The notes under the pieces are model-generated. The model did not search any database. It had not been told where the DNA came from and saw only the letters and a program-made list of their open reading frames with translations. 25,597 nt of DNA from a virus, in IMG/VR virus record IMGVR_UViG_3300048929_000531, positions 1 to 25,597 of that record; one strand, 5' to 3'. Shown here one piece after another: positions 537 to 24,683 of the stretch. Position numbers and translations under genes: made by a program. Numbering within the stretch: position 1 is the first letter of the stretch; every line of letters starts with the position of its first letter.

Positions 537-851
537 CTAGCCCGCCTTGACGCGCAGCTTGATCGCCTGCTCGATGGTGCGGCGCTTCAAGGTCTCGACG
601 CGGTTGACGATCTCGTAAGACCCGGCCGCGGCTCCGCTGGAGATCCATACCGTGGCCGTCGCAGCGGTGTTGCTGGCGCGATCGGCGACCAGGCCGGCCG
701 GCAGCGCGAAGGTCGATGAAGCGATGGCGTCGCCGCCATCGAGCCGCGCCGACCAATCCAGCGTGTAGTCGAGCACCAGATCGCTCGCGCTGGCGATCCA
801 GACCAGGCGCGCCGGGCGCCGCAGCAGCTTGACGATGCGGTCCGCCATCAC
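537..851 (-). CDS. Fiber-tail adaptor-like phage protein, 104 aa
   Basis: The product is probably a small virion protein with an Ig-like beta fold that sits at the head-tail or tail-fiber junction. The visible pattern is LDYTLDWSARLDGG near residues 26-39, a Ser/Thr/Ala-rich strand region with ALPAGLVAD, and a C-terminal part ISSGAAAGSYEIVNRV. This layout (Y.DW near the N-terminus, 'sSG.aG..YeivN.v' near the C-terminus) is what I associate with proteins annotated as phage fiber-tail adaptors. Its start overlaps the stop of the connector gene by 3 nt, which supports co-translation. Placement directly after the head-tail connector agrees with a joining role. Assignment is from pattern memory only. 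Confidence 0.55.
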   Translation of the reverse strand: MMADRIVKLLRRPARLVWIASASDLVLDYTLDWSARLDGGDAIASSTFALPAGLVADRASNTAATATVWISSGAAAGSYEIVNRVETLKRRTIEQAIKLRVKAG

Positions 852-1468
852 CAGGCCTCGTCGAGCAGCAGATCGCGGACCGCGTTCGGGATCAGCGTCT
901 CCATGTTCTGCGGCACGCCGAACGACTTGTCCCCGAGGCCGATCACGGAATCCCGTGTCAGCGTCAGGCTGTTCTCGCCCATGGTGTAGAGGTGGCGCAG
1001 CATCAGCAGGATGCTCGCCTTGACGTTGCCGGGGATGTCGGCTGGATCCTCATAGCCGGCATCGAAGCGGACCACGATCGGCTCGCTCGAGCCCGCGAAC
1101 ACCCGCGGCCAGAATTCGCCGAACTTCGGCAGCAGCCGGACGGTGTCCTTGTGCGTCTGCACCACGTAGCGCGCCGGGTCGAGCGTTTGCGGCGTCACGC
1201 TCTGCCAATCGATGTACTCGATGGAGGCGATGCCGTCCTTGAGCACTGGCGCGATCGGCACAGCCATGTCCTCGCGCCAGCGGGTCAGCACCCATTCCAT
1301 GGTCTGCAGCATGAACACCCGCTGCACCAGTGACTGGCAGAACTTTGTCGCCGCCGGAATCAACGCCTGGATGACAGTGTCCTGACACGAATCAGGGACA
1401 CGCAATTGCGCCTTGGCCTCGGCCAGCGTGACCGGATAGGCCGCCGGCGGAACGACGACGCGGAGCAT
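848..1468 (-). CDS. Phage head-tail connector protein (gp6/gp8-like), 206 aa
   Basis: The protein probably forms the adaptor ring between portal and tail. The N-terminus (VTLAEAKAQLRV, residues about 13-24, followed by a run ending LIPAATKFCQ) is the typical opening of the phage gp6-like/phiE125 gp8 connector family, which begins with a helix carrying 'eAK.hLRv..d.eD..i..li.aA...ce'. The middle repeats beta-rich phrases typical of the family (PVLKDGIASIEYID, then YVVQTHKDTVRLLP), and the C-terminal part has helices (KASILLMLRHLY). Length is normal for the family. In other HK97-like phages this gene follows the capsid gene closely; here the cargo block and a 62-aa gene lie between. Confidence 0.85.
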   Translation of the reverse strand: MLRVVVPPAAYPVTLAEAKAQLRVPDSCQDTVIQALIPAATKFCQSLVQRVFMLQTMEWVLTRWREDMAVPIAPVLKDGIASIEYIDWQSVTPQTLDPARYVVQTHKDTVRLLPKFGEFWPRVFAGSSEPIVVRFDAGYEDPADIPGNVKASILLMLRHLYTMGENSLTLTRDSVIGLGDKSFGVPQNMETLIPNAVRDLLLDEAW

Positions 1469-1497
1469 GTGGGATTACCTTGTGATCCTAGGAGAGA

Positions 1498-1686
1498 TCA
1501 GGCGAAGTGGAGGCTCGCAATGGCAAGCACCCAGCCGAGCGTCGCAACGCCGACAATAATCGGGCGACGCGTGCGCGCCAGCCAACGCGCGATGCGTTCA
1601 GCGCGCTGTCGACGCTTGCGCTCTTGCGGCCAATCCTCGCCATACCACGGCTTCGGCAGAGGCTTGTTCCAGTCCAGGACGCTCAT
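1498..1686 (-). CDS. Small single-pass membrane protein, 62 aa
   Basis: Starts at ATG 1684-1686 and ends 29 nt before the connector gene. The N-terminal half is polar and strongly basic (KPLPKPWYGEDWPQERKRR, then many Arg), and residues about 42-60 form one probable transmembrane helix (IIVGVATLGWVLAIAS). The positive charges before the helix suggest the N-terminus stays in the cytoplasm. It is co-directional with the late genes and lies just downstream of the cargo insert, so the insert edge is near its start codon. No family is recognised. It could be a phage protein of unknown role or part of the inserted block. Confidence 0.55.
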   Translation of the reverse strand: MSVLDWNKPLPKPWYGEDWPQERKRRQRAERIARWLARTRRPIIVGVATLGWVLAIASLHFA

Positions 1687-1722
1687 TGCTTTTGAATGCC
1701 CGTGAGGGAGTGGATAATTGCC

Positions 1723-1746
1723 GTCCGCTTATGACGCGCAGCGGAC
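1723..1746. terminator. Hairpin at the left edge of the cargo insert
   Basis: A perfect 7-bp inverted repeat GTCCGCT / AGCGGAC with a 10-nt spacer lies between the phosphorylase stop and the start of the 62-aa gene. It could end transcription of the phosphorylase. There is no T-run on the minus strand right after it, so it is a weak terminator candidate and could equally be a remnant of the insertion boundary. Confidence 0.35.
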
Positions 1747-1760
1747 ATTTGCGGGGTTCG

Positions 1761-2552
1761 CTACGGCGAGCCCTCGACCCCAGCAACTATCACCTCGAGT
1801 GCGGTCAAAGCTTCACGTGTTCCGTCCGCTTCACCTTTCTCGAAATCGTCACCGGTCTGCCCCATTGTGTTGGTGACATGAGCGAGGCAAAGGACGCGCA
1901 CTCGGGCGGTGTGGGCAAACGTGTACAGGGCTGCCGCTTCCATCTCCACTGCGAGGATGCCTTTATCCCTGGCCGCTTCGATCGCTTGCGGGGTCTCTCG
2001 AAAGGGCGCGTCCGTGGTCCAACTCGCTCCCACGACGCAGTGCAGGTCACTCTGTGAGAGAGCCGTCGCAGCCTTCTTTACGAGGGTTGGATCTGCTTCT
2101 GCGAACTCTGACGGTGGCGCATAGTGGTAGCTCGTTCCTTCATCTCGCAAGGAGCGGTCGATCACAACAAAGTAAGGAGGCTGACCAGCGGCGACAATCT
2201 GACCCGCCGATGTCAGGCTCACTAATAGCTGGCATCCGCTGGCAAACAGCTCCTCGGCTACAAGGACGGCGAAAGACGCGCCAACGACCCGGCCAACAAT
2301 CCCGACCTGACGGCCGCCAAGGTCGAAAACATCGAGTTCTGTGTGATAGCAGGGCCAGCCGGCGAATGGCCTTGCCGCGCCCGCTCGTCGCAAATGGCGC
2401 ACCAAATCACCATCGGGGTCCAAAATGCAGACGCTGGGCACATCCAGGGTATCGAGCCCCTTCTGTCGCCGTGCTTCACGAAGCAGAACTGCTGGAGCAA
2501 ACACCGACGGCATGGATGTGTGCTTATTGTCAAGGATGGGGGGAATTACCAT
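1761..2552 (-). CDS. Nucleoside phosphorylase family protein (PNP_UDP superfamily), 263 aa
   Basis: The product should cleave the glycosidic bond of a nucleoside, with phosphate (phosphorylase) or water (nucleosidase). Family signs in order, numbered from the chosen start: a glycine-containing strand IGIVGRVVGASFAVLVAE (about residues 80-97), LVSLTSAGQI (about 106-115), YFVVIDRSLRDEGTSYHY (about 122-139), then near the C-terminus GILAVEMEAAALYTFA, where VEMEAA is the signature that contacts the ribose. Substrate cannot be read from sequence; uridine, purine or methylthioadenosine/SAH-type substrates are all in this superfamily. The start MVIPPILDNK (ATG 2550-2552) was chosen because it opens the conserved region; MPSVFAP at 2513 is an alternative, and the frame stays open upstream to 2771. 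It is divergent to the methyltransferase with only 39 nt between starts. Confidence 0.78.
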   Translation of the reverse strand: MVIPPILDNKHTSMPSVFAPAVLLREARRQKGLDTLDVPSVCILDPDGDLVRHLRRAGAARPFAGWPCYHTELDVFDLGGRQVGIVGRVVGASFAVLVAEELFASGCQLLVSLTSAGQIVAAGQPPYFVVIDRSLRDEGTSYHYAPPSEFAEADPTLVKKAATALSQSDLHCVVGASWTTDAPFRETPQAIEAARDKGILAVEMEAAALYTFAHTARVRVLCLAHVTNTMGQTGDDFEKGEADGTREALTALEVIVAGVEGSP

Positions 2553-2591
2553 GTTTTTGCCAAAACCGCGCGTGGGTTGGAGGAGCAGGCT

Positions 2592-3215
2592 ATGAAGAGC
2601 GAGAGTCGTCAAGCCCATTGGGAAGAAGTCTACATCGAGAAGCGCGAGAACGAAGTAAGTTGGTTTCAGGAAAGTCCGGCGCCTTCGATCGAGTTGATTG
2701 CACAGGTCGATGCGACCCACGCTGGGGCTATCATCGACGTCGGCGGGGGTTCTTCGCGTCTGGTCGATCACCTCATTGATCGAGGCTTCGAGGATGTGAC
2801 CGTCCTCGATTTATCCGAGGCGGCGCTAGAGGCCACGAAAGGCCGCCTGAGGGACCGCGCTGCACAGGTTCATTGGATAGCCGCAGACGCAACAGTCTGG
2901 GAACCGCTGAAAGCGTACGATGTTTGGCATGATCGCGCGACGTTTCACTTCCTCACTGAGGAGCGTGACCGTGCTGCGTACGTCGCGCGCCTTGGACGAG
3001 CCTTGAAGGTCGGAGGGTACGCCATCATTGCGACCTTTGCACTCGATGGACCGGAACGATGTAGCGGCCTTCCCGTAGTGCGGTACGATGCCACGAGCCT
3101 TGGTGAGACCCTTGGGAGCGCGTTCCAACTCATTGAGACTCGGCGGCACGCTCATGCGACGCCTTGGGGTTCCAATCAATCGTTCCAATTCAGTGTGTTC
3201 CGGCGTCGCTCCTGA
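2592..3215 (+). CDS. Class I SAM-dependent methyltransferase, 207 aa
   Basis: Rossmann-fold methyltransferase that should transfer a methyl group from S-adenosylmethionine to a small molecule or metalloid. Seen in order: SRQAHWEEVY near the N-terminus, SAM motif I IIDVGGGSSRLVD at about residues 39-51, motif II VTVLDLSE at about 61-68, motif III-like HWIAADAT at about 88-95, motif IV-like YDVWHDRATFHFL, and LKVGGYAIIATF with the usual post-motif glycine. The start at 2592 is supported by a strong ribosome-binding site (GGAGGAG, 7 nt upstream). Its strand is opposite to all neighbouring phage genes, so late phage transcripts would run antisense through it. Proteins of this shape are often found near metal-resistance genes (memory, not searched). 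Substrate unknown. Confidence 0.82.
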   Translation: MKSESRQAHWEEVYIEKRENEVSWFQESPAPSIELIAQVDATHAGAIIDVGGGSSRLVDHLIDRGFEDVTVLDLSEAALEATKGRLRDRAAQVHWIAADATVWEPLKAYDVWHDRATFHFLTEERDRAAYVARLGRALKVGGYAIIATFALDGPERCSGLPVVRYDATSLGETLGSAFQLIETRRHAHATPWGSNQSFQFSVFRRRS

Positions 3216-3242
3216 GCGGCCAAGGGACAAGGGCGGCTCAAT

Positions 3243-3887
3243 CTATTTGGCGGCCGCCAATCGGCCAATGCGGAGTTCCTTACGGGCTTGGCGAACCACC
3301 ATTAGAGAGCCCTGGATCGCAAGTGCCGCCATGACCGCGGCGACAAATATATCGGGCCAGCCCGTGCCGGTTCCGAATACGCCCGCCGCTGCCAACAAGA
3401 CCGCGAGGTTTCCAAGCACATCGTTACGGGTGCAAATCCACGCGGATCGCATGTTAGAGTCACCATGACGGTACGCCCAAAGCAAAAAAAATGATGCTGC
3501 GTTGGCAGCTAAAGCTGCAGCTCCAACCGTGCCCATCGCAAATGCGCTTGGAATCGTTCCATGGAACGAATGCCACACAACTGTTGCGACAACCCAAACG
3601 CCGAAGGCCGCCATCGTCGCCCCCTTCGCAAGGGCAGCAACAGCACGGTAGCGCAGTGCCATCCCGACTACGAGCAGGCTTATGGCATAGTTGGCAGCGT
3701 CACCTAGAAAATCGAGCGAGTCCGCTTGTAGCGAAGCCGATCCGGCCACAAGACCCGCAATAACCTCAGCCGCAAACATTGCGGCATTGATCGCCAACAC
3801 AGCCCAGAGAACCCGGCGATAAGCCGCGTCCCTTTTTTTGTTTCCGCCCAGATCGAGGGCCGGCGGAGCGCAACAGCAATCGTTCAT
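3243..3887 (-). CDS. Short CDF-type cation transporter, 214 aa
   Basis: Predicted inner-membrane metal-ion exporter of the cation diffusion facilitator type. There are about six hydrophobic segments starting at residue about 25 (WAVLAINAAMFAAEVIAGL). The metal-site region in TM2 reads LQADSLDFLGDA, giving a D-xxx-D pair where CDF proteins have H/D-xxx-D, and TM5 carries WICTRNDVLGNLAV in place of HxxxD. The usual cytoplasmic C-terminal ferredoxin-like domain is missing; the protein ends with a basic tail. The N-terminus MNDCCCAPP has a Cys triplet that could take up soft metals. The start at 3885-3887 was chosen since upstream open sequence to 4823 is antisense to the decoration and capsid genes. 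Convergent with the methyltransferase, 27 nt apart. Confidence 0.82.
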   Translation of the reverse strand: MNDCCCAPPALDLGGNKKRDAAYRRVLWAVLAINAAMFAAEVIAGLVAGSASLQADSLDFLGDAANYAISLLVVGMALRYRAVAALAKGATMAAFGVWVVATVVWHSFHGTIPSAFAMGTVGAAALAANAASFFLLWAYRHGDSNMRSAWICTRNDVLGNLAVLLAAAGVFGTGTGWPDIFVAAVMAALAIQGSLMVVRQARKELRIGRLAAAK

Positions 3888-3972
3888 GAGCCGAAGATAA
3901 GATGAATCGCCGCCAATCGCTAGTCGTCTCCTCTTGGCCCATTGCGGACCCGGCGCCCGCATCGCCTGGACG

Positions 3973-4001
3973 CGCGCGCCCCGGACATGCCGAGGCGCGC
4001 G
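3973..4001. terminator. GC-rich hairpin after the decoration-like gene
   Basis: Perfect 8-bp inverted repeat CGCGCGCC / GGCGCGCG with a 13-nt spacer, starting 6 nt past the stop of the decoration-like gene in its reading direction. There is no T-run, so if it ends transcription it does so weakly. It marks the last phage-like sequence before the cargo insert. Confidence 0.4.
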
Positions 4002-4006
4002 AGTGA

Positions 4007-4459
4007 TCAGCCGACGATCTCGTCGACCGTGGTGGCGCCGTTGTCGCTGGCGAAGTCGTAGCGCGGATCGAAGCCGAGCACGACGCCGCCGATCAGGCAG
4101 GCCGCGGTCGCCGGCGTCATCGACAGACGGAAGAACTTGAAGCCGCCATTGAAGTCGAGATCTTCCTGCTTGAGGTTGATCAGGACCTGCTTGTTGTCGT
4201 CGGTGCCGGCTTTCGTCAGCTGGGTGATGGCGCGGCCGGCGACATCCTTGACGCCGGCGCCGGCGTTGCTGGTGGCCTGCTCGAGCTTGGCGTCGACCGT
4301 GGCCGAGGCGCCGAGCGCACCGACCATCAGCACCGCCATGTAGTTGTGGAACAGGGTCGCGTCGATCCAGCCCGAGGACTGCACCGCGGCGGCCGACTGC
4401 GGAGCGATGGTGCCGACGACGCTGACGCGCTGCGACGGCTTGAGAGCAATTCCAGACAT
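4007..4459 (-). CDS. Probable head decoration-like protein, 150 aa
   Basis: This gene directly follows the major capsid gene, the usual place for a head decoration or stabilisation protein. The sequence is Ala/Gly/Val/Thr rich and low in Cys, typical of a small virion protein: MSGIALKPSQRVSVVG at the start, a middle Ala-rich stretch (LMVGALGASATVDAK), then DLDFNGGFKFFRLSMTP and FDPRYDFASDNGATTVDE near the end. I do not recognise the exact family, so the role is inferred from position and composition. A ribosome-binding site-like AGGGA lies about 10 nt before the ATG at 4457-4459. Its upstream spacer (4460-4539) has a hairpin. Confidence 0.6.
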   Translation of the reverse strand: MSGIALKPSQRVSVVGTIAPQSAAAVQSSGWIDATLFHNYMAVLMVGALGASATVDAKLEQATSNAGAGVKDVAGRAITQLTKAGTDDNKQVLINLKQEDLDFNGGFKFFRLSMTPATAACLIGGVVLGFDPRYDFASDNGATTVDEIVG

Positions 4460-4507
4460 GCTGTTTCCCTATGATCTGGAGGAGTGAACGGGTGAAGGCA
4501 GAGGCGA

Positions 4508-4530
4508 CGCGCGGCCGCAGGGACCGCGCG
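4508..4530. other. Hairpin between capsid and decoration-like genes
   Basis: Inverted repeat CGCGCGG / CCGCGCG (7 bp, 9-nt loop) in the 80-nt spacer after the capsid stop. On the minus strand it is not followed by a T-run. It may tune the capsid-to-decoration mRNA ratio by pausing or protecting the capsid mRNA 3' end. Function is not proven. Confidence 0.35.
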
Positions 4531-4539
4531 CTATTGCGG

Positions 4540-5850
4540 TCAGCGCGCCTCGAGGGCGACGAAATGCGACTTGGTGTTGGGGCCCTTGGCCGGCGAAACC
4601 GGCTTCGACAGATAGGGCTGGCCGCCAAGGCGAAAGATCCAGCGGAACGCCTGGATGTTGTAGTCGAAGAACAGATGGATCGACGATGCGAAGTCGATGC
4701 CACCGCCGGCCTTGGTCGCCAGCGCGTAGCCAGAGAGGTCGACGGCGATGATGTCGCCGACATCGCCGAGCGTGGCGCAGTGCTCGTTGAATGACAACGA
4801 GCGTCCGAGGAAGATCCCGCCATCCGGCGCGCCCTGAATGGGCTGATTGAATGGCAGCCAGGCCGGAACGTTGCCGATGGTGAGCTGGCCGAGCTGCGGC
4901 AGCGTATCGGAGTTGGCGAGCCACATCGGACGGCCGCCCATGCGCAACAGCCGGGAATACATCTTCAGCACGTTCGGCACCGTAATGGTGTCGGCGGCCT
5001 GGCCGCTTTCCTTGGCTACCGTGACCAACGCCGACGAGTTCATGAAGCCGAGCGGCTTGCCGTTGCCGTCGCCGGTCACGACCGCCTCGAAGGCCTTCCA
5101 GCGGATGGCATTGGCGGCCTGGACGGTGATGCGGTTCTGCAGCCGCGGCGCGTCGTCGAGCACCTCCTGCGTCGCCAGCACAAAGGCGTAGAGCTCATGG
5201 AGCTGCATCATGGTCGGCGTGATCGCGGCCTTGGTGGCAACCATCTGGGTGCCTTCCGAACGCCAGTAGGCCTGCACGCCGGCGGCGCCCCAGGGCGTGG
5301 TCTCATCCTTGGCGATGCCGACCGAATTGCCGCTGGTCGGCTCCGGGTTGCAGAAGCCGAGCAGGTTGCCGTCATCGAACACCAGCGCCCAGATCTGCTC
5401 GCGGAATTCGGTCGGCACCAGGATGCCCTCGCCCGAGGTGCCCTGGTTCTGCTGGAAGCCGGACGGCGCGGCGCCGAGGCGCGGATCCTGAATGCCGCTC
5501 ACCTGGAAATTCCGGACCGACACCGCGAATTCGGCGAGGTTGTGAAAGCCGCCGGTGCGCTCCGGATTGAGATCGTTGACAACGGTGGCGCGCGCCGGTC
5601 CGCCGAGCGAGGTGGTGCCGAACAGCGCGGCGCGACGGATGGACTTCTCCTCCGCGGAGATTTCCTTGTCGAGATCGGCAACTTCCTTCTCGAGCGCATC
5701 GACCTGCGCCTCGAGCGTGGTGATCTGCCCCTTCTCGGCATCGGTCGCATCCGCCTTCACGAGCAGCGCATTGAGCTGATCGAGCGCAGTCTTGCCGGCC
5801 TTCGCCCTGTCGGCGCGGGCCTGGCGCAGCTTCTTGAGATCCTTCTTCAT
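4540..5850 (-). CDS. Phage major capsid protein, HK97 family, 436 aa
   Basis: Forms the icosahedral shell. Residues about 1-75 are a charged coiled coil (MKKDLKKLRQARADRAK through LEAQVDALEKEVADLDKEI) that matches the delta/scaffold domain of HK97-type capsid proteins, normally removed by the prohead protease. The rest shows family features: EGILVPTEFREQIWALV at about residues 140-156, SEGTQMVATKAAITPTMMQLHELYAFV in the core (long helix before it is the usual A-domain start), GDGNGKPLGFMNS near the middle, and IIAVDLSGYALATKAGG followed by FRWIFRLGGQPYL near the C-terminus. Ribosome-binding site AGAGGG sits 7 nt before the ATG. Downstream of the protease gene, as expected. Confidence 0.95.
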   Translation of the reverse strand: MKKDLKKLRQARADRAKAGKTALDQLNALLVKADATDAEKGQITTLEAQVDALEKEVADLDKEISAEEKSIRRAALFGTTSLGGPARATVVNDLNPERTGGFHNLAEFAVSVRNFQVSGIQDPRLGAAPSGFQQNQGTSGEGILVPTEFREQIWALVFDDGNLLGFCNPEPTSGNSVGIAKDETTPWGAAGVQAYWRSEGTQMVATKAAITPTMMQLHELYAFVLATQEVLDDAPRLQNRITVQAANAIRWKAFEAVVTGDGNGKPLGFMNSSALVTVAKESGQAADTITVPNVLKMYSRLLRMGGRPMWLANSDTLPQLGQLTIGNVPAWLPFNQPIQGAPDGGIFLGRSLSFNEHCATLGDVGDIIAVDLSGYALATKAGGGIDFASSIHLFFDYNIQAFRWIFRLGGQPYLSKPVSPAKGPNTKSHFVALEAR

Positions 5851-5953: not shown

Positions 5954-6817
5954 CTACTCGAAAGCCAGCGCGGAGCGGCGGCGCGTGGTGCGCGCTGCGG
6001 AAACCATCTTCTGCGTCAGCCCCGCGATGACCTCGTCGAGCGTGGCGACGCGATCGGCCATGCCGCGGGCGACCGCCTCGCGCGCGCCGAATACGCGGCC
6101 CTGGCCGAAGTCTTCCTTGACCTTGGCCTGCGTCACGCCGCGGCCCGCGGCGACGGCCTTGATGAAATCGGCGCCGGCGTCATTGGCGCGCGCCTGCAGG
6201 AACGCCCCCGCCTCATCCGACAGCGGCGCGAATGGATGGGCCTCATTCTTGTTCGGCGACTGCTCGGAGCGGATCATCGTCATCTTGATCCCCCATTGCT
6301 CGAGCATGCCTGAGACGTCCTGATGCATGATCATGGCGCCGATCGAGCCGACATCGGCCGAAGGCGCCATCACGAATTCGCTGGCCTGCGAGCCCAGCCA
6401 GTACGCCGCCGAGGCGGCGAGCGTGTTGGCGATGGCGATGACCGGCTTTTGCGCGGCCGCAGCCTTGACCTCGTTGGCGGCCTCGACAGTGCCGGCGACC
6501 GTGCCGCCGGGGCTGTCGATGTCGAGCACGATGGCCGCAACATCGGCATCATTGGCCGCGCGCCGCACGAAGCCGCCGAAAGCCGAGAGGCTGGTGCCGA
6601 ACCAGCTGCCGCGCGGCGTCAGCGCGCCATAGGCCGGGATCACAGCCACCTTCGCGGCGCGGCCGGCATCGGCCACGGCCGCGCTGCGGATCGCATTGGC
6701 CTCGGCGCGCGCCAGGCAATCGCCGAGCGCCGAGATCTCGATCGCAACGACGGGATCGATGGCGGCGATCTGCTGAATGGCCTGGCGCAATTCCGGCGGC
6801 TTGTCAGTCATCGGCAT
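5954..6817 (-). CDS. Prohead maturation protease, S49/SppA-like, 287 aa
   Basis: Serine protease of the ClpP-fold S49 family that should cleave the scaffold domain from the capsid protein during head maturation. Visible family features: IVLDIDSPGGTVAGT (about residues 96-110, oxyanion-hole DSPGG), the catalytic Ser in LAASAAYWLG at about residue 136, then SADVGSIGAM (about 153-162), where S49 proteins have a conserved SIG element. The S49 family also uses a Lys, which I could not place with certainty. The start at 6815-6817 is chosen because GAGGAGG lies 6 nt upstream; ATG at 6811 is the alternative. It overlaps the end of the portal gene by 14 nt. Order portal-protease-capsid is classical. 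Confidence 0.92.
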   Translation of the reverse strand: MPMTDKPPELRQAIQQIAAIDPVVAIEISALGDCLARAEANAIRSAAVADAGRAAKVAVIPAYGALTPRGSWFGTSLSAFGGFVRRAANDADVAAIVLDIDSPGGTVAGTVEAANEVKAAAAQKPVIAIANTLAASAAYWLGSQASEFVMAPSADVGSIGAMIMHQDVSGMLEQWGIKMTMIRSEQSPNKNEAHPFAPLSDEAGAFLQARANDAGADFIKAVAAGRGVTQAKVKEDFGQGRVFGAREAVARGMADRVATLDEVIAGLTQKMVSAARTTRRRSALAFE

Positions 6818-8147
6818 TTTCGTCCTCCTCGTCAGAATTCTGGTTGTCGCCAGGCTCGCTGCCGCCGCCAGCGCCGGCGTCGGCTGAGTTCTTGGTCTGC
6901 GGATTCTTGTACTCGTCGCCGCCCGGATCGGTGCGCGGCGGCATATTTTCGAACCGCAGGATGTCGTTCGCCGATAGCCACTCGCCCTGCCGGCCGATCA
7001 GATAAGCGCGGTAGCGGTTGAGCAGGTCGCCGCGCAGCAGACCGGCGAAATTGAATTCGACGAACAGCTTGTCGTCGTCATTGTCGAGCAGCAGATCGCG
7101 CTCGCAGGCCTGCTCGATTTCGATCGCGAGCGGCGCCAGGCAGTTGATGACGAAATCGAGCGACTGCTGCTCGATGTTGTTGTTGGTCGATCGCTTCAGC
7201 CGCGCGGCGCGGTGCGGCGGATAGCTCCAGAGGCCAAAGATCGCGGTGTCGGCCGCATCCTCGGTCTCGAGGAGCTGCGCTTCCTGGTTGGTGACCTTGA
7301 GCGGCTGGTACTCGCCGCCATATTTCAGCAGCCGATCGCGATGCCGGTTGCGACCGGTCGACATCGACCGCCATGTGTCAAGGAAGTCGCGCTCGTCGTC
7401 CTTGTTCCTGAAATTGCCGGGATGCTTGATAACGCCGCCGGTCTGGCCGGAATTGGCGAACCAGATGTCGCCATATTCGTGCACGGCAACGGCGCGGGCG
7501 AAGACATCGCGCGCGGAGACGAAGATCGGCTCGCCGAGCAGGCCATCTTCCTGCAGCGGATTGCTGCGAATGTGCCAGATCTCGTCGTCGCGATAGACTT
7601 CCGGCTTCAGCTTGGCATTCTGCACCAGCGTCGAAGGCGGATTGAAGGTGTAGTACAGGTGGCCGTCGATGCCGCGCTCGAGGTTCGCCAGCCGGCGCGG
7701 ATGCAGGATCTCGAGGCCGCCAACCGCATAATAGTCGCCGCGCTCGTCGACCGTGCCGGGCAGGACGCGGCAATAGGCGTTGCGATAGAACGAGACATGC
7801 CAGCCGATCTCGCCAATGAATTCGGCCGGCGTGGCGCCGTTGCCGGGGCGGCAGGCCAGCAGCTTCGTCAGCCGATGATCCGGCAGCGCCTCGCGCGCGC
7901 CTTTCGGGCCACGGCGATAAACCGAGACAGGCAGCGACTTCAGCGCCGAGGCCAGGCCATAGCGCACCGACTGGACGGCGCCGAGCTGGCTGGTGTTGCG
8001 GTCGGTCACCGTGACGCCGGCAATCGCGAGCTGGCCGCCGATCAGGCCGGCGTACATCCGCTCTTCCATCACATCGCGCGGCCGTGACGGATCGACCGCG
8101 TCCGCAACGGCGCGAAATGCCGAGGTCAGCCCGCTCATCAGCCCCAT
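6804..8147 (-). CDS. Phage portal protein, HK97 family, 447 aa
   Basis: Forms the dodecameric ring at the capsid vertex through which DNA is packaged. Family features include YGLASALKSLPVSVYR (residues about 64-79), ALPDHRLTKLLACRPGNGATPAEF (the usual 'l..hpl..lL..rPN...t..eF' block), YYTFNPPS, DEIWHIRSNPLQEDGLLGEPI (matching 'eilHir....dg..G.Spi'), and a C-terminal ENMPPRTDPGGDEY followed by an acidic tail. Length is normal. The start codon overlaps the large-terminase stop (TAATG), which supports coupled translation. The last residues are very acidic (NSDEEDENADD), common in portals. Confidence 0.95.
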   Translation of the reverse strand: MGLMSGLTSAFRAVADAVDPSRPRDVMEERMYAGLIGGQLAIAGVTVTDRNTSQLGAVQSVRYGLASALKSLPVSVYRRGPKGAREALPDHRLTKLLACRPGNGATPAEFIGEIGWHVSFYRNAYCRVLPGTVDERGDYYAVGGLEILHPRRLANLERGIDGHLYYTFNPPSTLVQNAKLKPEVYRDDEIWHIRSNPLQEDGLLGEPIFVSARDVFARAVAVHEYGDIWFANSGQTGGVIKHPGNFRNKDDERDFLDTWRSMSTGRNRHRDRLLKYGGEYQPLKVTNQEAQLLETEDAADTAIFGLWSYPPHRAARLKRSTNNNIEQQSLDFVINCLAPLAIEIEQACERDLLLDNDDDKLFVEFNFAGLLRGDLLNRYRAYLIGRQGEWLSANDILRFENMPPRTDPGGDEYKNPQTKNSADAGAGGGSEPGDNQNSDEEDENADD

Positions 8148-9862
8148 TAGACCACCACCAGCATGTCAGATCCGGTCACCAGCATGCCGGCCTGCGGATT
8201 CCAGCTCATCAGGATTGTCGCCTGCAACAGCGCGATCAGCGGGTCGATCTTGGCGCGGCCGGCGACCTGCTTGGTGATCATGTCGGCATTGCCGCGCTGC
8301 TCGACCTTGGCGTTGCCGACCACCCACGTCATCAGCGCCTGCTCGGCGTGAAAGTACGTCGCATCGGCGAGCTTCAGATCGAGGCCGTACACCGCGGGCG
8401 CCAGCGCCGGACCCTGCAGCAGCCGGCGCACCATGTCGTCGGTCACGCCGGCGCCGAACAACGCTTCGAACAGGGCCGCCGCCCGGTTCGGGTCGACACC
8501 CACAGCGTTCTTGTCCGGCAGCAAGCCGCTCGCGACCACGGTGGCGACGATGGCTGCAAGCTCGGTCAGCGCCGCCGCGATATCCACAATCGAGCACGAA
8601 TCCTCTTTCACGAAGTCGTCGAGATGCGACGCGATGTCCTTGCGGCGCTCCAGCACGATCGGGTCCGCCCATGCGTAGCACCATGACAGCCAGTTACGCG
8701 TGCCCTTCTCGCGCCCCATCACCGCCAGGCCGAGCAGATCGTCGCGGCCGCCGCCGTCAACGCCGATCGTCACCACCTCGCTGCGCTCCAGCAGCGTTTC
8801 CAAGGTCAGCCCCTCGTCGGCCTGCGCGTCCCAAAGATCCGCGCCGCTCCAGCCGTCATCGTTGGTCCCCGTCCCGATCTCGATGTTGAGATGCTGCGAA
8901 GCCCAGATGCGGATAGCTTCCTCGCCCTTCTCGCGCTCGCTGGCGAAATCGGCCTGCATCGAGGCAACCGTGATGGGCCGGTTGATGTTCGGCATCACCA
9001 TCGGCCAGCAGGCCGGGTCCATCCAGCGTGGCTCGACACCACGCTTGCGTTCTTCGCGCGTCAAAGTGGCGATATCGCGCGGAAGCTCATAGAGCAACGG
9101 TAGCGTCGGGCGAATGATCTTGCCGCGGTAAAGGCCGTCGCGCAGATTGCGCACGAATTTCAATTCGCTCTTGAAAGCGCCCGCCGGAGGCTCGTCGCTC
9201 TGCGTCGTGGTGGTGACCAGCACGCCTTCCTCGGTCTTATCGAGTCCCCCGCGGATCTGGCGCAGCACGCGCGAGGTATGGGCGCGCTTGCCAAGCAGAT
9301 GCAGCTCGTCGAGCAGCACGAAGATCAGCGCCATCGCGCCGGTCAGGATCTTGAGGTCGAAGCTCGCGATCATGATTTCCGACTTGGTGACAAGGTCCTC
9401 GATCGTCTTGTCGTAGTCGCGCGGTTTGAACCGCCGGCGCAGATCCGGCGACTCCTCGATCATGCCGACCGCCTGCTCATAGGCGCGATCGGCAACCGCC
9501 TGCGTCTCGCCGAGAAACAGCGCGGTCGCGCGCGGCCGGAAGTTCATCAGCATCGCGACCAGCATCAGCGCGGCGGAATACGTCGTCTTTGACGAGCCCT
9601 TCGGGACCAGCGCGAAGAAATCGCGGATCATCCGCACCTTGTTGACCGGGTCCCATGATCCGAACACCGCACGCACCAGGTCGCGGAACCACTGGCCCGA
9701 CGCATCGCCGAGCCGCGGATTGCCCGCCACGTCCGGCAGCCGCATCTCGTCGTAGAACGCCAGACCCATGTCCGCTTCGCTTTCGAACAGCGGAAGGTCC
9801 GGAATCAGCGAGCGGCCGTTGCGGATGCGATCTTCCCAATCGGGGCAGGAGGTGTCCCACAT
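8147..9862 (-). CDS. Terminase large subunit (TerL), 571 aa
   Basis: ATP-driven motor that cuts and packages phage DNA. The ATPase domain shows a Walker A variant VPKGSSKTT at residues about 86-94 (Ser-rich instead of GxGKS/T, common in TerL), the coupling region ALFLGETQ, and Walker B LIFVLLDELHLL at about 179-190 with the Asp-Glu pair at 185-186. The nuclease domain contains VTIGVDGGGRDDLLGLAV with the metal-binding Asp, plus later acidic residues (AVGVDPNRAAALFEAL). Length fits the HK97/Terminase_1 group. The start overlaps the methylase stop (TGATG). With the small subunit encoded just upstream, this suggests cos packaging, but no cos site could be recognised. Confidence 0.94.
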   Translation of the reverse strand: MWDTSCPDWEDRIRNGRSLIPDLPLFESEADMGLAFYDEMRLPDVAGNPRLGDASGQWFRDLVRAVFGSWDPVNKVRMIRDFFALVPKGSSKTTYSAALMLVAMLMNFRPRATALFLGETQAVADRAYEQAVGMIEESPDLRRRFKPRDYDKTIEDLVTKSEIMIASFDLKILTGAMALIFVLLDELHLLGKRAHTSRVLRQIRGGLDKTEEGVLVTTTTQSDEPPAGAFKSELKFVRNLRDGLYRGKIIRPTLPLLYELPRDIATLTREERKRGVEPRWMDPACWPMVMPNINRPITVASMQADFASEREKGEEAIRIWASQHLNIEIGTGTNDDGWSGADLWDAQADEGLTLETLLERSEVVTIGVDGGGRDDLLGLAVMGREKGTRNWLSWCYAWADPIVLERRKDIASHLDDFVKEDSCSIVDIAAALTELAAIVATVVASGLLPDKNAVGVDPNRAAALFEALFGAGVTDDMVRRLLQGPALAPAVYGLDLKLADATYFHAEQALMTWVVGNAKVEQRGNADMITKQVAGRAKIDPLIALLQATILMSWNPQAGMLVTGSDMLVVV

Positions 9863-19758: not shown

Positions 19759-20141
19759 CAGAGCCCCTCCTCGAGCGCGGCCAGGCGGCGCGCGGTTTCA
19801 GCCGCCTGCTTGCGCAGGCGCGCGACTTCATGCGTGCGGCGGACGTTTTCGGCCCATGGATGTTTGCAGTCGGCTGTGAGCGCATCGAGCACGCGATCGC
19901 CGATGTCGCTGCAAATCAGGCGCGCGAGCGCCTCACCATCAGGCGCCCCGGTGCCGGCGATCCAGAACTCGCAAATGCGAGTATGGCGGCCGGCCCGGGA
20001 GGCAAGATTCTGCGCCAGCTTCTTCGGGAAAATCCCGCGCAAATCCGCAATAACCGGCGCGAACCACAGATGAGATCGTCGGGATCGTCCGATCTTTTCA
20101 TCGGTCCCTTTTTTTGACGTTCCTGCGCGGGTGGGGCTCAT
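19758..20141 (-). CDS. HTH transcriptional regulator of the early operon, 127 aa
   Basis: Residues about 24-90 resemble a phage HTH domain: WFAPVIADLRGIFPKKLAQNLASRAGRHTRICEFWIAGTGAPDGEALARL, which has the 'k.a.nLA..tg.s.RtcerWl.G...P.g.a...L' flow of known alphaproteobacterial phage regulators. The last part RRTHEVARLRKQAAETARRL is a coiled coil. ATG at 20139-20141 overlaps the upstream stop (ATGA). It lies second from the control region, where a Cro- or CII-like regulator would be expected. The N-terminal 20 residues are basic and may be disordered. Confidence 0.72.
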   Translation of the reverse strand: MSPTRAGTSKKGTDEKIGRSRRSHLWFAPVIADLRGIFPKKLAQNLASRAGRHTRICEFWIAGTGAPDGEALARLICSDIGDRVLDALTADCKHPWAENVRRTHEVARLRKQAAETARRLAALEEGL

Positions 20142-20377
20142 GAAGGCACCCGCTCGGGACGCGCTACGCTCTCCGGCCAAACCGCGCCATCGGGCCAGTT
20201 TGAGGAAAACCAACTCATGGTCTTTTCGAAGCGCCGGACCTGGATGTCGGCACCGGCCTCGATCGCCAACAGTTTCTTGGTGTCCCTAAGCGCGCGCCAG
20301 CTAACGGTGGAGAGGTCGATGCCCTCTGCCCTTCCGTAGGCCCGCGCGACAATCAAAAGCGAATCTATGGCGCTCAT
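20138..20377 (-). CDS. First gene of the early operon, small protein, 79 aa
   Basis: Begins at ATG 20375-20377, 11 nt after the nearest operator. Its product MSAIDSLLIVARAYGRAEG, RALRDTKKLLAIEAGADIQVRRFEK, then MSWFSSNWPDGAVWP, resembles small proteins encoded first in the lytic operon of Rhizobiales phages ('...v.ayc.a.g...s.ls..algdgk...rl..g..vt.rt.ek...wfs.nWP.g..WP'). Part of it may be an HTH (residues about 15-45). A Cro-like role is possible because it is the first gene facing the repressor across the operators. Unproven. Confidence 0.68.
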   Translation of the reverse strand: MSAIDSLLIVARAYGRAEGIDLSTVSWRALRDTKKLLAIEAGADIQVRRFEKTMSWFSSNWPDGAVWPESVARPERVPS

Positions 20378-20388
20378 GATTGCCGTTC

Positions 20389-20464
20389 AACAGTAATTTT
20401 ACCGATTCGGTCAACGGTAATGTTACCGTTTCCCACCGGATTACCGGCCAGTCAAATTACCGAC
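20389..20464. promoter_or_regulatory. Left operator region: at least three sites between the early operon and the repressor
   Basis: Sites: 20389-20406 AACAGTAA-TT-TTACCGAT; 20413-20430 AACGGTAA-TG-TTACCGTT (perfect 8-bp arms); 20447-20464 GCCAGTCA-AA-TTACCGAC (weak); plus one lone half-site TTACCG at 20441-20446. They fill the 89 nt between the divergent starts of the early operon (20377) and repressor (20467). The same sequence recurs on the other side of the repressor gene. They should bind the CI-like repressor. Exact -10/-35 boxes here were not convincing. Confidence 0.8.
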
Positions 20465-20466
20465 CC

Positions 20467-21144
20467 ATGGATAACCTCAAGAAAATCGTTGCGAGGATTG
20501 ACAAACGGCTAGCAGCGGTCGGGCTGAAAGCCGCCACCGCGTCCCGTCAGGCAGGGCTTAGCGAGAGCGCGATTTACAACATGAAGCGTGGCGCAAAGGG
20601 GAAAATCGCCACGCGAGGTGCCAATGCCGCGACATTTATCGCCCTTGCCCCTGTACTTAAAACGACACCGGCATGGCTAATGTCAGGTGAAGGTCCCGAG
20701 GTTGCTGAACCGGATCCTCACATCGAAAGCGGCGCAATTCTGCCCGACCCTCCGCGCAACGGTCGTTTTGTGCGAATTGTCGGCTATGTTGGCGCGGGAA
20801 GCGCCGCCCACTATTACGCTATTGCCCAAGGAGACTACGAAGAGGTGGAAGCCCCTATCGGAGCTAGCGATCAAACGGTCGCGGTAGAAATCAAAGGCAA
20901 GAGCTTTGGCCCGCTCCTCGATTCCTGGCTGGTGTTCTACGAAGATGTCAGGTCACCAATTTCCGATGACCTGCTCAACCACACCTGCGTGATCGGCCTC
21001 AGTGACGACCGAATCCTGATCAAGGAGGTCCGACGGGAGCGCGACGGTAGTTATACGCTACTCTCAAATTCGGACGAACCTCCTATCCGAAACGCACAGA
21101 TTGAGTGGGCCGCAAAGGTAACCGGTCTTCGACCGAGGCGGTGA
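20467..21144 (+). CDS. CI-like phage repressor with S24 peptidase domain, 225 aa
   Basis: Keeps the prophage silent. N-terminal residues about 15-75 are an HTH domain (ATASRQAGLSESAIYNMKRG, then ALAPVLKTTPAWLMSG, the usual 'tPaWLl.G.g' end). Residues about 100-220 are an S24/LexA-like part: IVGYVGAGSAAHYYA with a probable Ala110-Gly111 cleavage point, VEIKGKSFGPLLDSWLVFY with Ser at about 146, and DRILIKEVRRERDGSYTLLSNS with Lys at about 186. Ser and Lys are both present, so RecA-stimulated self-cleavage is plausible, although GKSFGP replaces the common GDSMxP. Start at 20467 was chosen as the upstream ATG at 20380 would read through the operators. It has no strong ribosome-binding site, since operators lie right before it. 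Confidence 0.88.
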   Translation: MDNLKKIVARIDKRLAAVGLKAATASRQAGLSESAIYNMKRGAKGKIATRGANAATFIALAPVLKTTPAWLMSGEGPEVAEPDPHIESGAILPDPPRNGRFVRIVGYVGAGSAAHYYAIAQGDYEEVEAPIGASDQTVAVEIKGKSFGPLLDSWLVFYEDVRSPISDDLLNHTCVIGLSDDRILIKEVRRERDGSYTLLSNSDEPPIRNAQIEWAAKVTGLRPRR

Positions 21145-21189
21145 AACGGTAATTTTACCGTTTTTTGTTGACGCAGTAAAATTACCGAT
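21145..21189. promoter_or_regulatory. Right operators: two repressor sites after the repressor gene
   Basis: 21145-21162 reads AACGGTAA-TT-TTACCGTT, a perfect palindrome in its 8-bp arms that starts right at the repressor stop. 21172-21189 reads CGCAGTAA-AA-TTACCGAT, closely matching the weaker left site. The first palindrome is followed by T6 and could also act as an intrinsic terminator of the repressor message. Confidence 0.8.
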
Positions 21190-21196
21190 ATAGATA
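21168..21196 (+). promoter_or_regulatory. Probable rightward promoter for the integrase operon
   Basis: TTGACG (21168-21173), 17-nt spacer, TAGATA (21191-21196). The second right operator lies inside the spacer, so repressor bound there would block polymerase. It would transcribe 21226 to 23379, meaning the small genes, excisionase-like gene and integrase are under repressor control. Confidence 0.7.
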
Positions 21197-21221
21197 GTCT
21201 CCGTTTTGTTCTAACGGAGAC
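21197..21221 (+). promoter_or_regulatory. Perfect hairpin covering the ribosome-binding site of the first rightward gene
   Basis: GTCTCCGTT / AACGGAGAC (9 bp, 7-nt loop). The 3' arm holds GGAG, the ribosome-binding site for the ATG at 21226. The structure could hide the site in the mRNA, or the DNA palindrome could be an operator for a second regulator. If transcription starts near 21203, only part of the 5' arm would be in the RNA. Confidence 0.5.
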
Positions 21222-21225
21222 TTAT

Positions 21226-21510
21226 ATGCGTCGCTCGACCTGCAACCGCCTTCCAGGCGTCAGCCGCTTTACCGAACCCACCCCGTCCATTCCCGAATTC
21301 ATCACCACTTCGTTCGTCCAGCCCCGCGCGAACCTATCCGGCGATAGGGCGACCTCCCAACTCGCCGAGGATATGCGTCAGGCCGGCAATCGCGAGGGTG
21401 GCGTCTCGCGTGAAGATTTGCAGCTTTTAGGATGGACCGGGGCACAACTAGACCTGCTCGGCGAAAAGGCCAGAATAAGGGCGCAGCGCCTGTCCGGTGG
21501 CTCGATCTAA
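21226..21510 (+). CDS. Hypothetical phage protein, 94 aa
   Basis: First gene of the rightward operon, with GGAG 7 nt before the ATG. The protein (MRRSTCNRLPGVSRF, a Pro-rich stretch TEPTPSIPEF, SQLAEDMRQAGNREGG, SREDLQLLGWTGAQLDLLGEKAR) is polar with a helical C-terminal half. The block 'vs.edL..lGwt..Ql..lg..A...A..l' is a short pattern I associate with small phage proteins that have no known role. One Cys only. Could be an anti-repressor or an integration/excision helper by position. Confidence 0.65.
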   Translation: MRRSTCNRLPGVSRFTEPTPSIPEFITTSFVQPRANLSGDRATSQLAEDMRQAGNREGGVSREDLQLLGWTGAQLDLLGEKARIRAQRLSGGSI

Positions 21511-21926: not shown

Positions 21927-22324
21927 CCCCTATCTCCCTCGCAAAGAGTCCTGAGGACCTTCGCCTGGCACTGGAAGCCGCCTTCGCCGGCAAGGCTACC
22001 ATCGGCGTCCCAAAGCTGGCGGCCCTCATCCCCTTGCATCGCGAGACGATCCAGCGGCATGTTGAGGCTGGCAACCTGACCGGCCGGCTGAAGGGCCTCG
22101 GCCGCACCAGGCGCCACCGGGTTTTTACCATCGGCGATGTGATCCGGTTCATCGAGTTTCTGGCCGAGGATCCGCCATGTCAGTCTACCGCGACAAGCGA
22201 TCGCCCTATTTCCAATTCGACTTCCAGATCGACGGTTATCGCTTTTCCGGCTCCACCAAATGCCGCAATGAACGTGACGCGCAGACCTTCGAGGACGCGC
22301 GCAAAGTCGAAGCTCAAGAGCTAG
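21923..22324 (+). CDS. Excisionase-like HTH protein (overlaps integrase start)
   Basis: Residues about 20-80 form a MerR/Xis-like winged helix: FAGKATIGVPKLAALIPLHRETIQRHVEAG, then NLTGRLKGLGRTRRHRVFTIGDVIRFIEFL ('tIgv..la.l......Ti..hve.G.l.....G.g...r.f...dv..fie'). It would bind near the attachment site and steer integrase towards excision. The reading frame continues to a stop at 22324, 148 nt past the integrase ATG at 22177, so the last 50 residues (PISNSTSRSTVIAF...) are likely not functional sequence. A longer-than-needed overlap hints at loss of an original stop. Confidence 0.65.
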   Translation: MTPISLAKSPEDLRLALEAAFAGKATIGVPKLAALIPLHRETIQRHVEAGNLTGRLKGLGRTRRHRVFTIGDVIRFIEFLAEDPPCQSTATSDRPISNSTSRSTVIAFPAPPNAAMNVTRRPSRTRAKSKLKS

Positions 22325-23379
22325 TCGATCAGCTCAACGCCGCCGGCAGCGGGCCGCTGCAGCTCAAGGCGGCCTGCGACCGCTGGTGGATCGAGCACGG
22401 GTCAACCCTATCCGACGTCTCGATCAAGCGCGCCCTGGACCGCCTGGTCGAGATCATGGGCCCGAAGAAATTCCTGCATGCCATTACCGACGCCGACGTC
22501 ACCCTCATGATTCAGAAGCGGCGCGCTGACACTCGCCGCGACTGCACGGTTATCGACGACGACGGCAAGCGCACCATCCTGTACCGGCCGATCACGCTGT
22601 CGACGGTCAATCGGACCATCGACCTCTTGCGCCGCGTGATGCGCCGCGCCCGCGACAACTGGAACGTCGCGATCATCCGGGAACCGAAGTGGCGAAAGCA
22701 TCGCTTCAGGGAAAAGCGCGGCCATGTCCGGGAGCTTACGGCCACCGAGGAAATGACACTGGATGCGGCGGAGGATGCCGACTATGCCGAGCTGCGCCGG
22801 TTCGCGATCATTACCGGCCTGCGCAAGCGCAACCTCATTCTGCTCTGGCCTCAGATCGATTTCGAGCTCGGCGTCATCCGGGTCATCACCAAGGGCGGCG
22901 AGCCGCGCGTAGTTCCGATGACCCGCGAAGTCTACCAGATGCTCTGGCGCCGCCGCGGCGATCATCCGGAATACGTTTTCACCTTTCGCGCCAAACGCAC
23001 CCGCCAGTGCCCTAAAACCAAGCGTCAGTACGTCAAGGGCCAGCGCTACCCGATGACCTACGCCGGCGTGACTTCGAACAAGACGCGCAAATGGGCCAAG
23101 GCTGGCATCAAAGCGCGCATCCACGACCTCCGTCACACTACCGGCATGCGCACTCTGCGCCGAACCAGAAACCTGCGCGTGGTGCAGGAGCTGCTCGGCC
23201 ATACCGACATCAAGACAACGGCAGATTTTTACACCGCCGCGATGGTCGACGATCTTCGGGCCGCGATGGAGGAAGCGACCGCGCCAGCCGCGGCACCGCT
23301 CTTTGAGCAGCCATCAGAAGGCCAAGCCGAGAGTCAGGCCTCGGGCTCGAGTCCCGGAAAAAATCCCGGAACGCCCTGA
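22177..23379 (+). CDS. int: Tyrosine-type site-specific integrase, 400 aa
   Basis: Catalyses integration and excision at the tRNA site. N-terminal arm-binding part: SPYFQFDFQIDGYRFSGSTK (an AP2-like beta region). A SAM-like core-binding domain covers about residues 60-170. The catalytic domain holds the full set of residues: Arg216 in TGLRKRN, Lys239 in TKGGEPR, His316 and Arg319 in HDLRHT, His342 in LLGHTD and Tyr352 in TADFYT. The protein is full length and should be active. The tail from about 365 is Ala/Pro/Ser rich. The gene points to the attachment site about 55 nt beyond its stop. ATG at 22177 fits the normal N-terminus although it lies within the excisionase-like frame. Confidence 0.96.
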   Translation: MSVYRDKRSPYFQFDFQIDGYRFSGSTKCRNERDAQTFEDARKVEAQELVDQLNAAGSGPLQLKAACDRWWIEHGSTLSDVSIKRALDRLVEIMGPKKFLHAITDADVTLMIQKRRADTRRDCTVIDDDGKRTILYRPITLSTVNRTIDLLRRVMRRARDNWNVAIIREPKWRKHRFREKRGHVRELTATEEMTLDAAEDADYAELRRFAIITGLRKRNLILLWPQIDFELGVIRVITKGGEPRVVPMTREVYQMLWRRRGDHPEYVFTFRAKRTRQCPKTKRQYVKGQRYPMTYAGVTSNKTRKWAKAGIKARIHDLRHTTGMRTLRRTRNLRVVQELLGHTDIKTTADFYTAAMVDDLRAAMEEATAPAAAPLFEQPSEGQAESQASGSSPGKNPGTP

Positions 23380-23433
23380 GAAATCGGTACAAGTGATTGA
23401 TGCTGGCTCTGAAATTAAACTTCGGCTCGCTTG

Positions 23434-23478
23434 TTTCGATTCCGAGGGTCGGGAGTTCGAATCTCTCCGAGCGCGCCA
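23434..23478 (+). other. Attachment site (attR side): tRNA 3' fragment, probably tRNA-Arg
   Basis: The fragment carries a tRNA 3' half in order: anticodon loop TTTCGAT (anticodon TCG, so Arg, by position), 3' stem TCCGA, variable loop GGGTC, T-stem GGGAG/CTCTC with loop TTCGAAT, acceptor strand CGAGCGC, discriminator G and encoded CCA. No matching 5' half (GCGCTCG..., D-arm, TCGGA) precedes it; the upstream bases do not pair. This is the copy left by phage integration into a tRNA gene. The intact gene should be at the other prophage end, left of this window, on the plus strand. The exact core of crossover cannot be defined. Confidence 0.8.
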
Positions 23479-23562
23479 CTAATATCAAAGCAATTTCAGA
23501 TATCTAACTAAGTATCGGGTTCGTTCTTTTGAGCAAATCCGTGTTGCTGTCTGGTATTTCTA

Positions 23563-23585
23563 AAACACCTTTATTTACGGTGTTT
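23563..23585. terminator. AT-rich hairpin downstream of att
   Basis: Inverted repeat AAACACC / GGTGTTT (7 bp, 9-nt loop) in otherwise featureless sequence between the att site and the next ORF. It may end read-through from the tRNA or integrase. No strong T-run. Confidence 0.3.
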
Positions 23586-23657
23586 CATGTTTAGTACCAA
23601 CTGGCGGATGCAACACGGGCGCAACATGGATATTCGCGCATCGTTCTCATTGAAGGA

Positions 23658-23680
23658 CCCGCCGGCTCGTCACCGGCGGG
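23658..23680. terminator. GC-rich terminator-like hairpin
   Basis: CCCGCCGG / CCGGCGGG (8 bp, 7-nt loop) lies about 34 nt past the stop of the small minus-strand ORF at 23714-23848. This stem shape is a typical alphaproteobacterial terminator, but no long T-run follows on either strand. Confidence 0.5.
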
Positions 23681-23713
23681 CCCCCGAAGGAATTCTACTG
23701 ACGAGGTCCGTCG

Positions 23714-23848
23714 TCAATCGGTACCGACCAGCCGGACGGTGCTTGCCGTCGGAGCCTTGGCCTCGGTCTCCGCTAGAAACTCCCTCACTAGCTGTTCGGA
23801 GAGCCGGAGCACGATCAGGGGCGTCTTCCTGATCTTCAGGAAGCTCAC
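23714..23848 (-). CDS. Possible 44-aa protein in the host flank
   Basis: GTG at 23846-23848 opens a frame reading VSFLKIRKTPLIVLRLSEQ, then LVREFLAETEAKAP, STVRLVGTD, stop. The pattern of hydrophobic and charged residues looks like a helix-rich small protein, and a terminator-like hairpin follows. An in-frame stop lies directly before the GTG and there is no clear ribosome-binding site, so it may be the remaining end of a larger gene. Low confidence. Confidence 0.3.
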   Translation of the reverse strand: MSFLKIRKTPLIVLRLSEQLVREFLAETEAKAPTASTVRLVGTD

Positions 23849-23888
23849 TCACCACGTGGATAGTGCCGCCTATGCCATGGCTTCTCGA

Positions 23889-24683
23889 TCATGCCATCAC
23901 CGTCTGCGTCCAGTCCTGCGATCCGACCTGCTCAAGCAACCCCTCAATATCGCCGACGCCGGTGTCGCTTTGATCGCCTTCGTCGTCGCACTGTTCTTCG
24001 AGATCGGGCAGACCGCCGGCGTATTCTCCGCGGCCGGCTTCCTGCATGGTCCAACCGAGGGATGGCTCGTCGTTGCCATCCTCTTGCTCGCAGTCCTCGC
24101 ACCCCAGCGCGCTCGGCATGTTAAGGCCGCTCGCCGTTACGCCGCAAAGGGAAGGCTCGTCGTCGTCAGGCATCTCCCGAGGTCCTGATTGCCCTCGCTG
24201 GTGTAGCTCTGCCAGTAACAGCCCTTTTCCTCTGGCGGATTGTCCTTGCAGAAGAACAGAAACTCCGGCCGGCCTAGCGTCGGCTCGTCGTCGGCGCCGT
24301 CCTCGTCATCCTCTGATCGAACCGCCAATAGCGACCCACCTCCCCGATCTCGGCATGGGTCGGCTCGTCAGTAAGCTCCATATCGGAATCCCCTTCCGTG
24401 GCGTCCAGGAAGGCCAAGAGCCGCTCGATCTCGTCGGCGGCCCTTGCTGCTGCCGGATTAAGATGGCCAGCGGGTGCCCGTCTCTGGCTGCGGCGGCCGC
24501 AGGATCGAAGGAGCGGAAGGCCCGGTACGGGTGCTGTTCCGCCTGCAGTTCAATCGGAGGCGGCAGGACGCTCTCCCCGCGGTTTGCTGGCTCGCTCTTG
24601 AGCCGGGGGTGCACCGAACGCGCTCGACGAGACTTGCGCACACGCGTGGCCGCCGCTGGGGCGGTAATCGGTAGGATAGACAT
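23889..24683 (-). pseudogene. Degraded acidic-repeat protein gene (several frameshifts)
   Basis: Read on the minus strand from ATG at 24681-24683 (MSILPITAPAAATRVRKSR), the sensible protein moves between frames. Segment 1 ends near 24440; segment 2 is DEIERLLAFLDATEGDSD and DMELTDEPTHAEIGEVGRYW; segment 3 is SEDDEDGADDEPTLGRPEF and ends EGNQDLG; segment 4 is MPDDDEPSLCGV, DGNDEPSLGWTMQE and DWTQTVMA. The repeated DDEPSLG-like blocks recall acidic hypothetical proteins often seen in Bradyrhizobium-type genomes. At least three 1-nt shifts are needed, for example one G lost from GGGG near 24175. The gene therefore looks dead, unless sequence errors explain it. Confidence 0.6.

Follow-up and report, generated by a model that had tools for sequence, protein, structure and literature searches.

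A probable moron-type block of bacterial genes inside the head operon of a Bradyrhizobium-type HK97 siphoprophage

The head operon of a soil-bacterium prophage, a Bradyrhizobium-type HK97 siphophage, is interrupted by an insert of ~2.5 kb with definable edges, which is absent from the related phages, is foreign in composition, consists of two source blocks of bacterial homology and encodes strongly conserved proteins. It lies in the window analysed here, namely the whole stretch of 25,597 nucleotides at positions 1 to 25,597 of the IMG/VR record IMGVR_UViG_3300048929_000531, and separates the decoration-like gene from the head-tail connector. Its cargo comprises genes for a phosphorylase-superfamily protein, a class I SAM-dependent methyltransferase and a short CDF cation transporter. 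Taken as a whole, the insert is read here as a moron-type cargo block of a rhizobial siphoprophage, whose genes may contribute to metal and chalcogen tolerance side by side; we put the probability of this reading at roughly 0.55.

Results

The three cargo reading frames are all intact, with the phosphorylase and CDF genes on the strand of the head operon and the methyltransferase gene between them on the opposite strand (Table 1). Since the methyltransferase gene points in the opposite direction to the head operon, the trio does not constitute one operon. The start of the phosphorylase gene was placed by alignment with homologs; the 336-aa form in the list of open reading frames begins too early. 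A sequence-only reading of the window had described a cargo of three spaced, non-virion genes at 1690-3972 in the head operon, between the decoration-like gene and the connector. Three such genes are indeed present within this range with phage head genes on both sides, but they do not form a single operon, and the insert extends over about 1474-3973, adding an orphan 62-aa ORF and spacers. Wide gaps occur only towards the phage genes, while the cargo genes themselves are just 39 bp (2553-2591) and 27 bp (3216-3242) apart.

The lower GC noted in the same reading was borne out. Overall GC is 0.58-0.60 in the cargo genes versus 0.65-0.69 in the neighbouring phage genes, and the contrast is also evident at third positions (0.59-0.62 in the three cargo genes versus 0.83-0.91 in the neighbouring head genes). 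The orphan ORF is intermediate (third-position GC, 0.75); no relatives of it were found in the collections searched, and it is also missing from the related phages. The window contains no tRNA, and the repeats in 1400-4100, where transposition was considered, are only short, chance-level ones. No sigma-70-like consensus promoter was found in 1400-4550, and ~60 bp upstream of the CDF gene is common to the window and its bacterial homologs. Elsewhere in the window, GC dips to 0.53-0.58 at 20000-21500 and 23250-24000; the ORFs in these dips include a repressor-like one (20380-21144), with an integrase-like one (22177-23379) close by, both named from reading their translations.

Table 1. Features of the insert and the flanking head genes (window coordinates)
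Feature	Position	Strand	Evidence and remarks
Gp77-like adaptor	537-851	-	beside connector
gp6-like head-tail connector	848-1468	-	TIGR02215, E 1.7e-18; phrog_442; downstream neighbour of insert
Whole insert relative to related phages	1474-3973		edges from phage nucleotide homology
Orphan 62-aa ORF	1498-1686	-	one hydrophobic stretch
Phosphorylase-methyltransferase module	1742-3220		bacterial nucleotide homology
PNP_UDP_1 phosphorylase-superfamily protein, 263 aa	1761-2552	-	PF01048, E 1.5e-30; fold
Divergent intergenic region between two start codons, 39 bp	2553-2591		sequence; starts set by homolog alignment
Class I SAM-dependent methyltransferase, 207 aa	2592-3215	+	Methyltransf_25, E 3.3e-12; phrog_26773, E 2.5e-62; fold; family conservation
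CDF module	3231-3950	-	bacterial nucleotide homology; takes in ~60 bp upstream
Short CDF cation transporter, 214 aa	3243-3887	-	PF01545, E 2.4e-14, above cut-off
Phage hairpin directly after decoration-like gene	3974-4000	-	fold; comparable hairpin in L073 and L279
Decoration-like head gene (phrog_28483)	4007-4459	-	E 1.8e-57; upstream neighbour of insert in head operon; kept after capsid gene in relatives
HK97 major capsid protein	4540-5850	-	TIGR01554, E 6.2e-45; query for finding relatives
Protease	5954-6817	-	head operon
Portal	6804-8147	-	head operon
Terminase	8147-9862	-	head operon

With the capsid protein as a query, relatives of the phage were found in 24 viral contigs, in ppBdUSDA122-1, an induced siphophage of B. 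diazoefficiens USDA 122 (PMC10127595), and in 11 prophages from 9 of 266 Bradyrhizobium genomes. The phosphorylase, methyltransferase and CDF genes were absent from the stretch examined in all of them. In most relatives with a recognisable connector, this gene begins ~10-100 bp after the decoration-like gene (~60-100 bp in L279 and prophages L309-L314, L316, L318 and L319; 310 bp in L080). In prophages L315 and L317, the stretch examined contains no recognisable connector, and all three cargo genes are likewise missing. Phage nucleotide homology in the window ends at 3974-3989, at a hairpin that relatives also have on the decoration side, and resumes at 1473, where the connector starts. As the junction is empty in the nearest relatives, the block is a true insert.

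A comparison of the head operon with relatives had been proposed from the sequence alone, on the view that related phages all carrying these genes at phage GC would speak against a foreign cargo. This was not seen: ppBdUSDA122-1 and the 11 Bradyrhizobium prophages are free of the cargo, and their flanks are joined wherever the connector is recognisable. Extra genes thus stand between conserved phage genes, are missing from all related phages checked and are unlike the phage in third-position GC, and the earlier suggestion of moron-like cargo holds in this respect. The block is carried by only one phage record in IMG/VR, and a second phage with the same insert was not found, which is what an assembly chimera or a decayed prophage, rather than a permanent component of a functional phage, would give. 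We consider such an artefact very improbable, as phage homology is continuous on both sides of the 2.5-kb block, the head genes are intact and two independent bad joins would have been required.

Within the insert, two bacterial modules meet at ~3220/3231, the divergent phosphorylase-methyltransferase pair and then the CDF gene. At the nucleotide level, the pair matches G474 (1759-3220, 78%) and G501 (1742-3218, 77%), and the CDF block matches G512 (3231-3950, 75%) and G002 (3241-3926, 84%), all four belonging to the Bradyrhizobium genus genome set. In the methyltransferase tree, the window copy stands beside chromosomal Bradyrhizobium copies with local support of 0.75-0.87. The cargo proteins keep the family-invariant residues, and dN/dS against the nearest relatives is ~0.05-0.13 in pairwise NG86 estimates, in which the phage branch is not isolated.

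The sequence-only reading had taken the trio as one unit and called for a search for the three proteins as neighbours across genomes. We searched 392 family genomes, 266 genus genomes and the plasmid matches listed; the genome samples were spread evenly over the larger groups, and presence was defined by E-value cut-offs. Relatives of the phosphorylase, methyltransferase and CDF were present in 82, 133 and 78 of the 392 family genomes, respectively. The phosphorylase and methyltransferase genes lie within 300 bp of each other in 14 of these genomes, with ~0.01 expected; 12 of the adjacent pairs are divergent and 2 are on the same strand, and the divergent pair also occurs on plasmids L135-L137. 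The phosphorylase-methyltransferase pair is a real genomic unit. The CDF gene adjoins the phosphorylase gene in one of the 392 genomes and the methyltransferase gene in one (~0.01 expected); such neighbours are rare (L026 and L071 with phosphorylase, L015 and L019 with methyltransferase), and both L019 and L071, the latter a Bacteroidota MAG, are outside the 392-genome sample. All three genes together were found nowhere besides the window (0/392 family genomes, 0/266 genus genomes and none in the plasmid matches listed), and no description of this gene set was found in the literature. The idea of a single unit therefore survives for the pair, which recurs, but not for the trio, which is a one-off so far: the bacterial homology of the CDF gene and that of the pair form distinct blocks that simply adjoin each other.

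This arrangement bears on whether the host modules came together by accident, being neutral or with either the CDF or the methyltransferase alone being of consequence, and with no shared pathway. The two abutting blocks, the trio's lack of recurrence and the scarcity of a CDF gene next to the pair all fit such chance accumulation. We nevertheless regard it as possible but on balance unlikely, as the frames and the family-invariant residues are kept, both modules have bacterial contexts of a metal or redox type, and even the rare pairwise links of the CDF gene, one each per 392 genomes, exceed expectation.

Separately, plasmid pGW6_1 of Methylocystis rosea (L141:7251-8786) encodes a phosphorylase-like relative fused to a UbiE-like methyltransferase, with ArsR, DsrE and cysteine desulfurase genes as neighbours. 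This fusion was dropped as direct support for the pair, since the fused methyltransferase belongs to a different family; it gives indirect support only.

The CDF protein has a Cation_efflux domain, lacks the C-terminal cytoplasmic domain and carries an N-terminal CCC motif. D59xxxD63 and C152xxxD156 are conserved in the family and probably form the paired metal site in TM2 and TM5, with a Cys in TM5, an assignment that draws partly on general features of the CDF family. The TM2 site could be aligned to ZnT8, in a weak match that does not confirm the TM5 register. The unusual quartets listed in the passages of PMC5703985 considered here do not include the putative D,D / C,D quartet, and the protein possibly has soft-metal specificity. 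On plasmids, its relatives adjoin MerR regulators, Czc/Cus RND or mer genes. The window protein resembles the MerR-linked short CDF proteins of alphaproteobacterial plasmids, annotated as 'cation transporter', in length, family and the N-terminal Cys motif present in most relatives (53-63% identity to the best plasmid matches), but it differs from them in lacking the MerR neighbour found beside CDF relatives on several plasmids.

The AlphaFold models of the phosphorylase-like protein and the methyltransferase are both confident (mean pLDDT of the two models, 88 and 92). The folds nearest to the methyltransferase include echinomycin thioacetal, halide and TehB methyltransferases among many of class I, with TehB and the halide methyltransferases being among the closest solved structures. 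With TehB, halide-thiol and Mdd small-molecule S-methyltransferases it shares the class I fold and contexts with sulfur or metal genes. It differs from TehB and the halide-thiol enzymes in that identity is ~20% or less and the window family has the invariant motifs WHDRA, GPxxCSGL and HxTP. The plasmid neighbours of the methyltransferase are often P-type ATPases, ArsR, MerR, ChrA, RND pumps and DmeF (hand-picked matches with no background rate), which is suggestive of an association with metal-resistance loci. Other neighbourhoods hold sulfur and thiol redox genes (also hand-picked), and several chromosomal neighbourhoods of the pair are non-metal ones with CoA-transferase, enoyl-CoA hydratase and histidine kinases.

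Among phages, a scan of IMG/VR for close relatives gave no match to the window methyltransferase, and an alignment-based viral scan found the family in 21 viral contigs, all without the phosphorylase or CDF gene. In 17 of the 21 (L326, L329-L342, L344 and L345), the methyltransferase comes directly after a conserved 73-aa gene (phrog_4276), and terminase genes (terS/terL) lie downstream in 16 of these 17; in L327 and L328 it precedes the tape measure gene. The phage copies are on the late-gene strand. In addition, Pseudomonas phage Y11 (OQ572412, a record marked UNVERIFIED) encodes a relative of 52% identity (L133:6001-6609). Such a recurrent lone phage gene with a constant neighbour raises the alternative that the methyltransferase and the nucleoside enzyme serve the phage during infection, acting on SAM, nucleosides, small-molecule signals or in counter-defence, with the CDF gene incidental. 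This is improbable for the window, as its methyltransferase groups in the tree with chromosomal Bradyrhizobium copies rather than the phage ones and is oriented opposite to the late operon; moreover, a search for anti-phage defence with PADLOC gave only a generic methyltransferase-domain match in mad2.

The phosphorylase-like model matches the PNP/MTA/uridine phosphorylase fold. The protein resembles the PNP_UDP_1 enzymes (DeoD, MTA phosphorylase and uridine phosphorylase) in fold, the EMEA ribose-site motif and the Pfam match. On the other hand, it differs from DeoD-type enzymes in belonging to a separate, tightly conserved subfamily and in having, by alignment, Asn at the position of Asp204 and Ser at that of Arg87, the catalytic and the phosphate-binding residue of DeoD, respectively. 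It thus does not qualify as a DeoD-type purine nucleoside phosphorylase, and ordinary purine phosphorolysis is doubtful because of these two replacements. The same applies to recycling of the SAM by-product nucleoside, a role proposed from the sequence alone that is weakened with the usual catalytic Asp and phosphate Arg missing. Structure 4m3n has Asp at the DeoD 204 position. We had considered Asn as a mark of adenosine specificity and dropped this, as 3uay is an engineered D204N mutant. The motifs RDEGTSYHY and WTTDAPFRET are conserved in the phosphorylase-like protein and point to a distinct subfamily. In viruses, the scan of IMG/VR for close relatives found no match to the window phosphorylase, and the alignment-based scan found one truncated phosphorylase-like locus.

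Discussion

We infer that two bacterial modules, the divergent pair and the single CDF gene, to both of which Bradyrhizobium-type chromosomal copies are closest, came to sit one after the other in the short gap that separates the decoration-like gene from the connector gene. In the lysogen, the cargo would be expressed from its own short upstream regions. The CDF protein would export a divalent metal, the methyltransferase may methylate a small nucleophile (a thiol, sulfide or metalloid) relevant under metal or sulfur stress, and the phosphorylase-like partner may cleave a nucleoside-like molecule, either product or substrate, tied to that stress. The gains in tolerance would stand side by side and need not belong to one shared pathway. 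The metal or metalloid detoxification proposed earlier is partly supported by the links of the CDF and the methyltransferase to metal-resistance loci, but need not run as a single pathway of the trio.

A more far-reaching version, which we offer as tentative and rather doubtful, is that the divergent pair makes up a mobile stress module not described before. Its methyltransferase would modify a metabolite of metal or sulfur stress, its partner, with the canonical residues for phosphorolysis lost, would cleave a non-standard nucleoside, and phages would spread the module, here together with a metal exporter.

Metal-resistance genes in prophages are already known to be common. They are reported in 8.9% of 63,058 soil prophages (PMC13343844) and in lysogenic phages of chromium soils (PMC8240259). 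The block described here resembles phage morons and such prophage genes in being a set of host-derived extras of other composition, flanked by virion genes and missing from relatives. It differs in that this combination is not described in the passages of the two papers considered here, and that only the CDF gene is clearly a metal-resistance gene.

The block is therefore new as a further example of prophage-borne metal-resistance genes. With related phages as empty-site controls, it clearly shows a temperate phage whose virion operon holds host stress genes. It also draws attention to a pair of a phosphorylase-family protein and a methyltransferase that recurs, is apparently uncharacterised and often lies close to genes for metal and redox functions, as well as to a methyltransferase family acquired by phages more than once.
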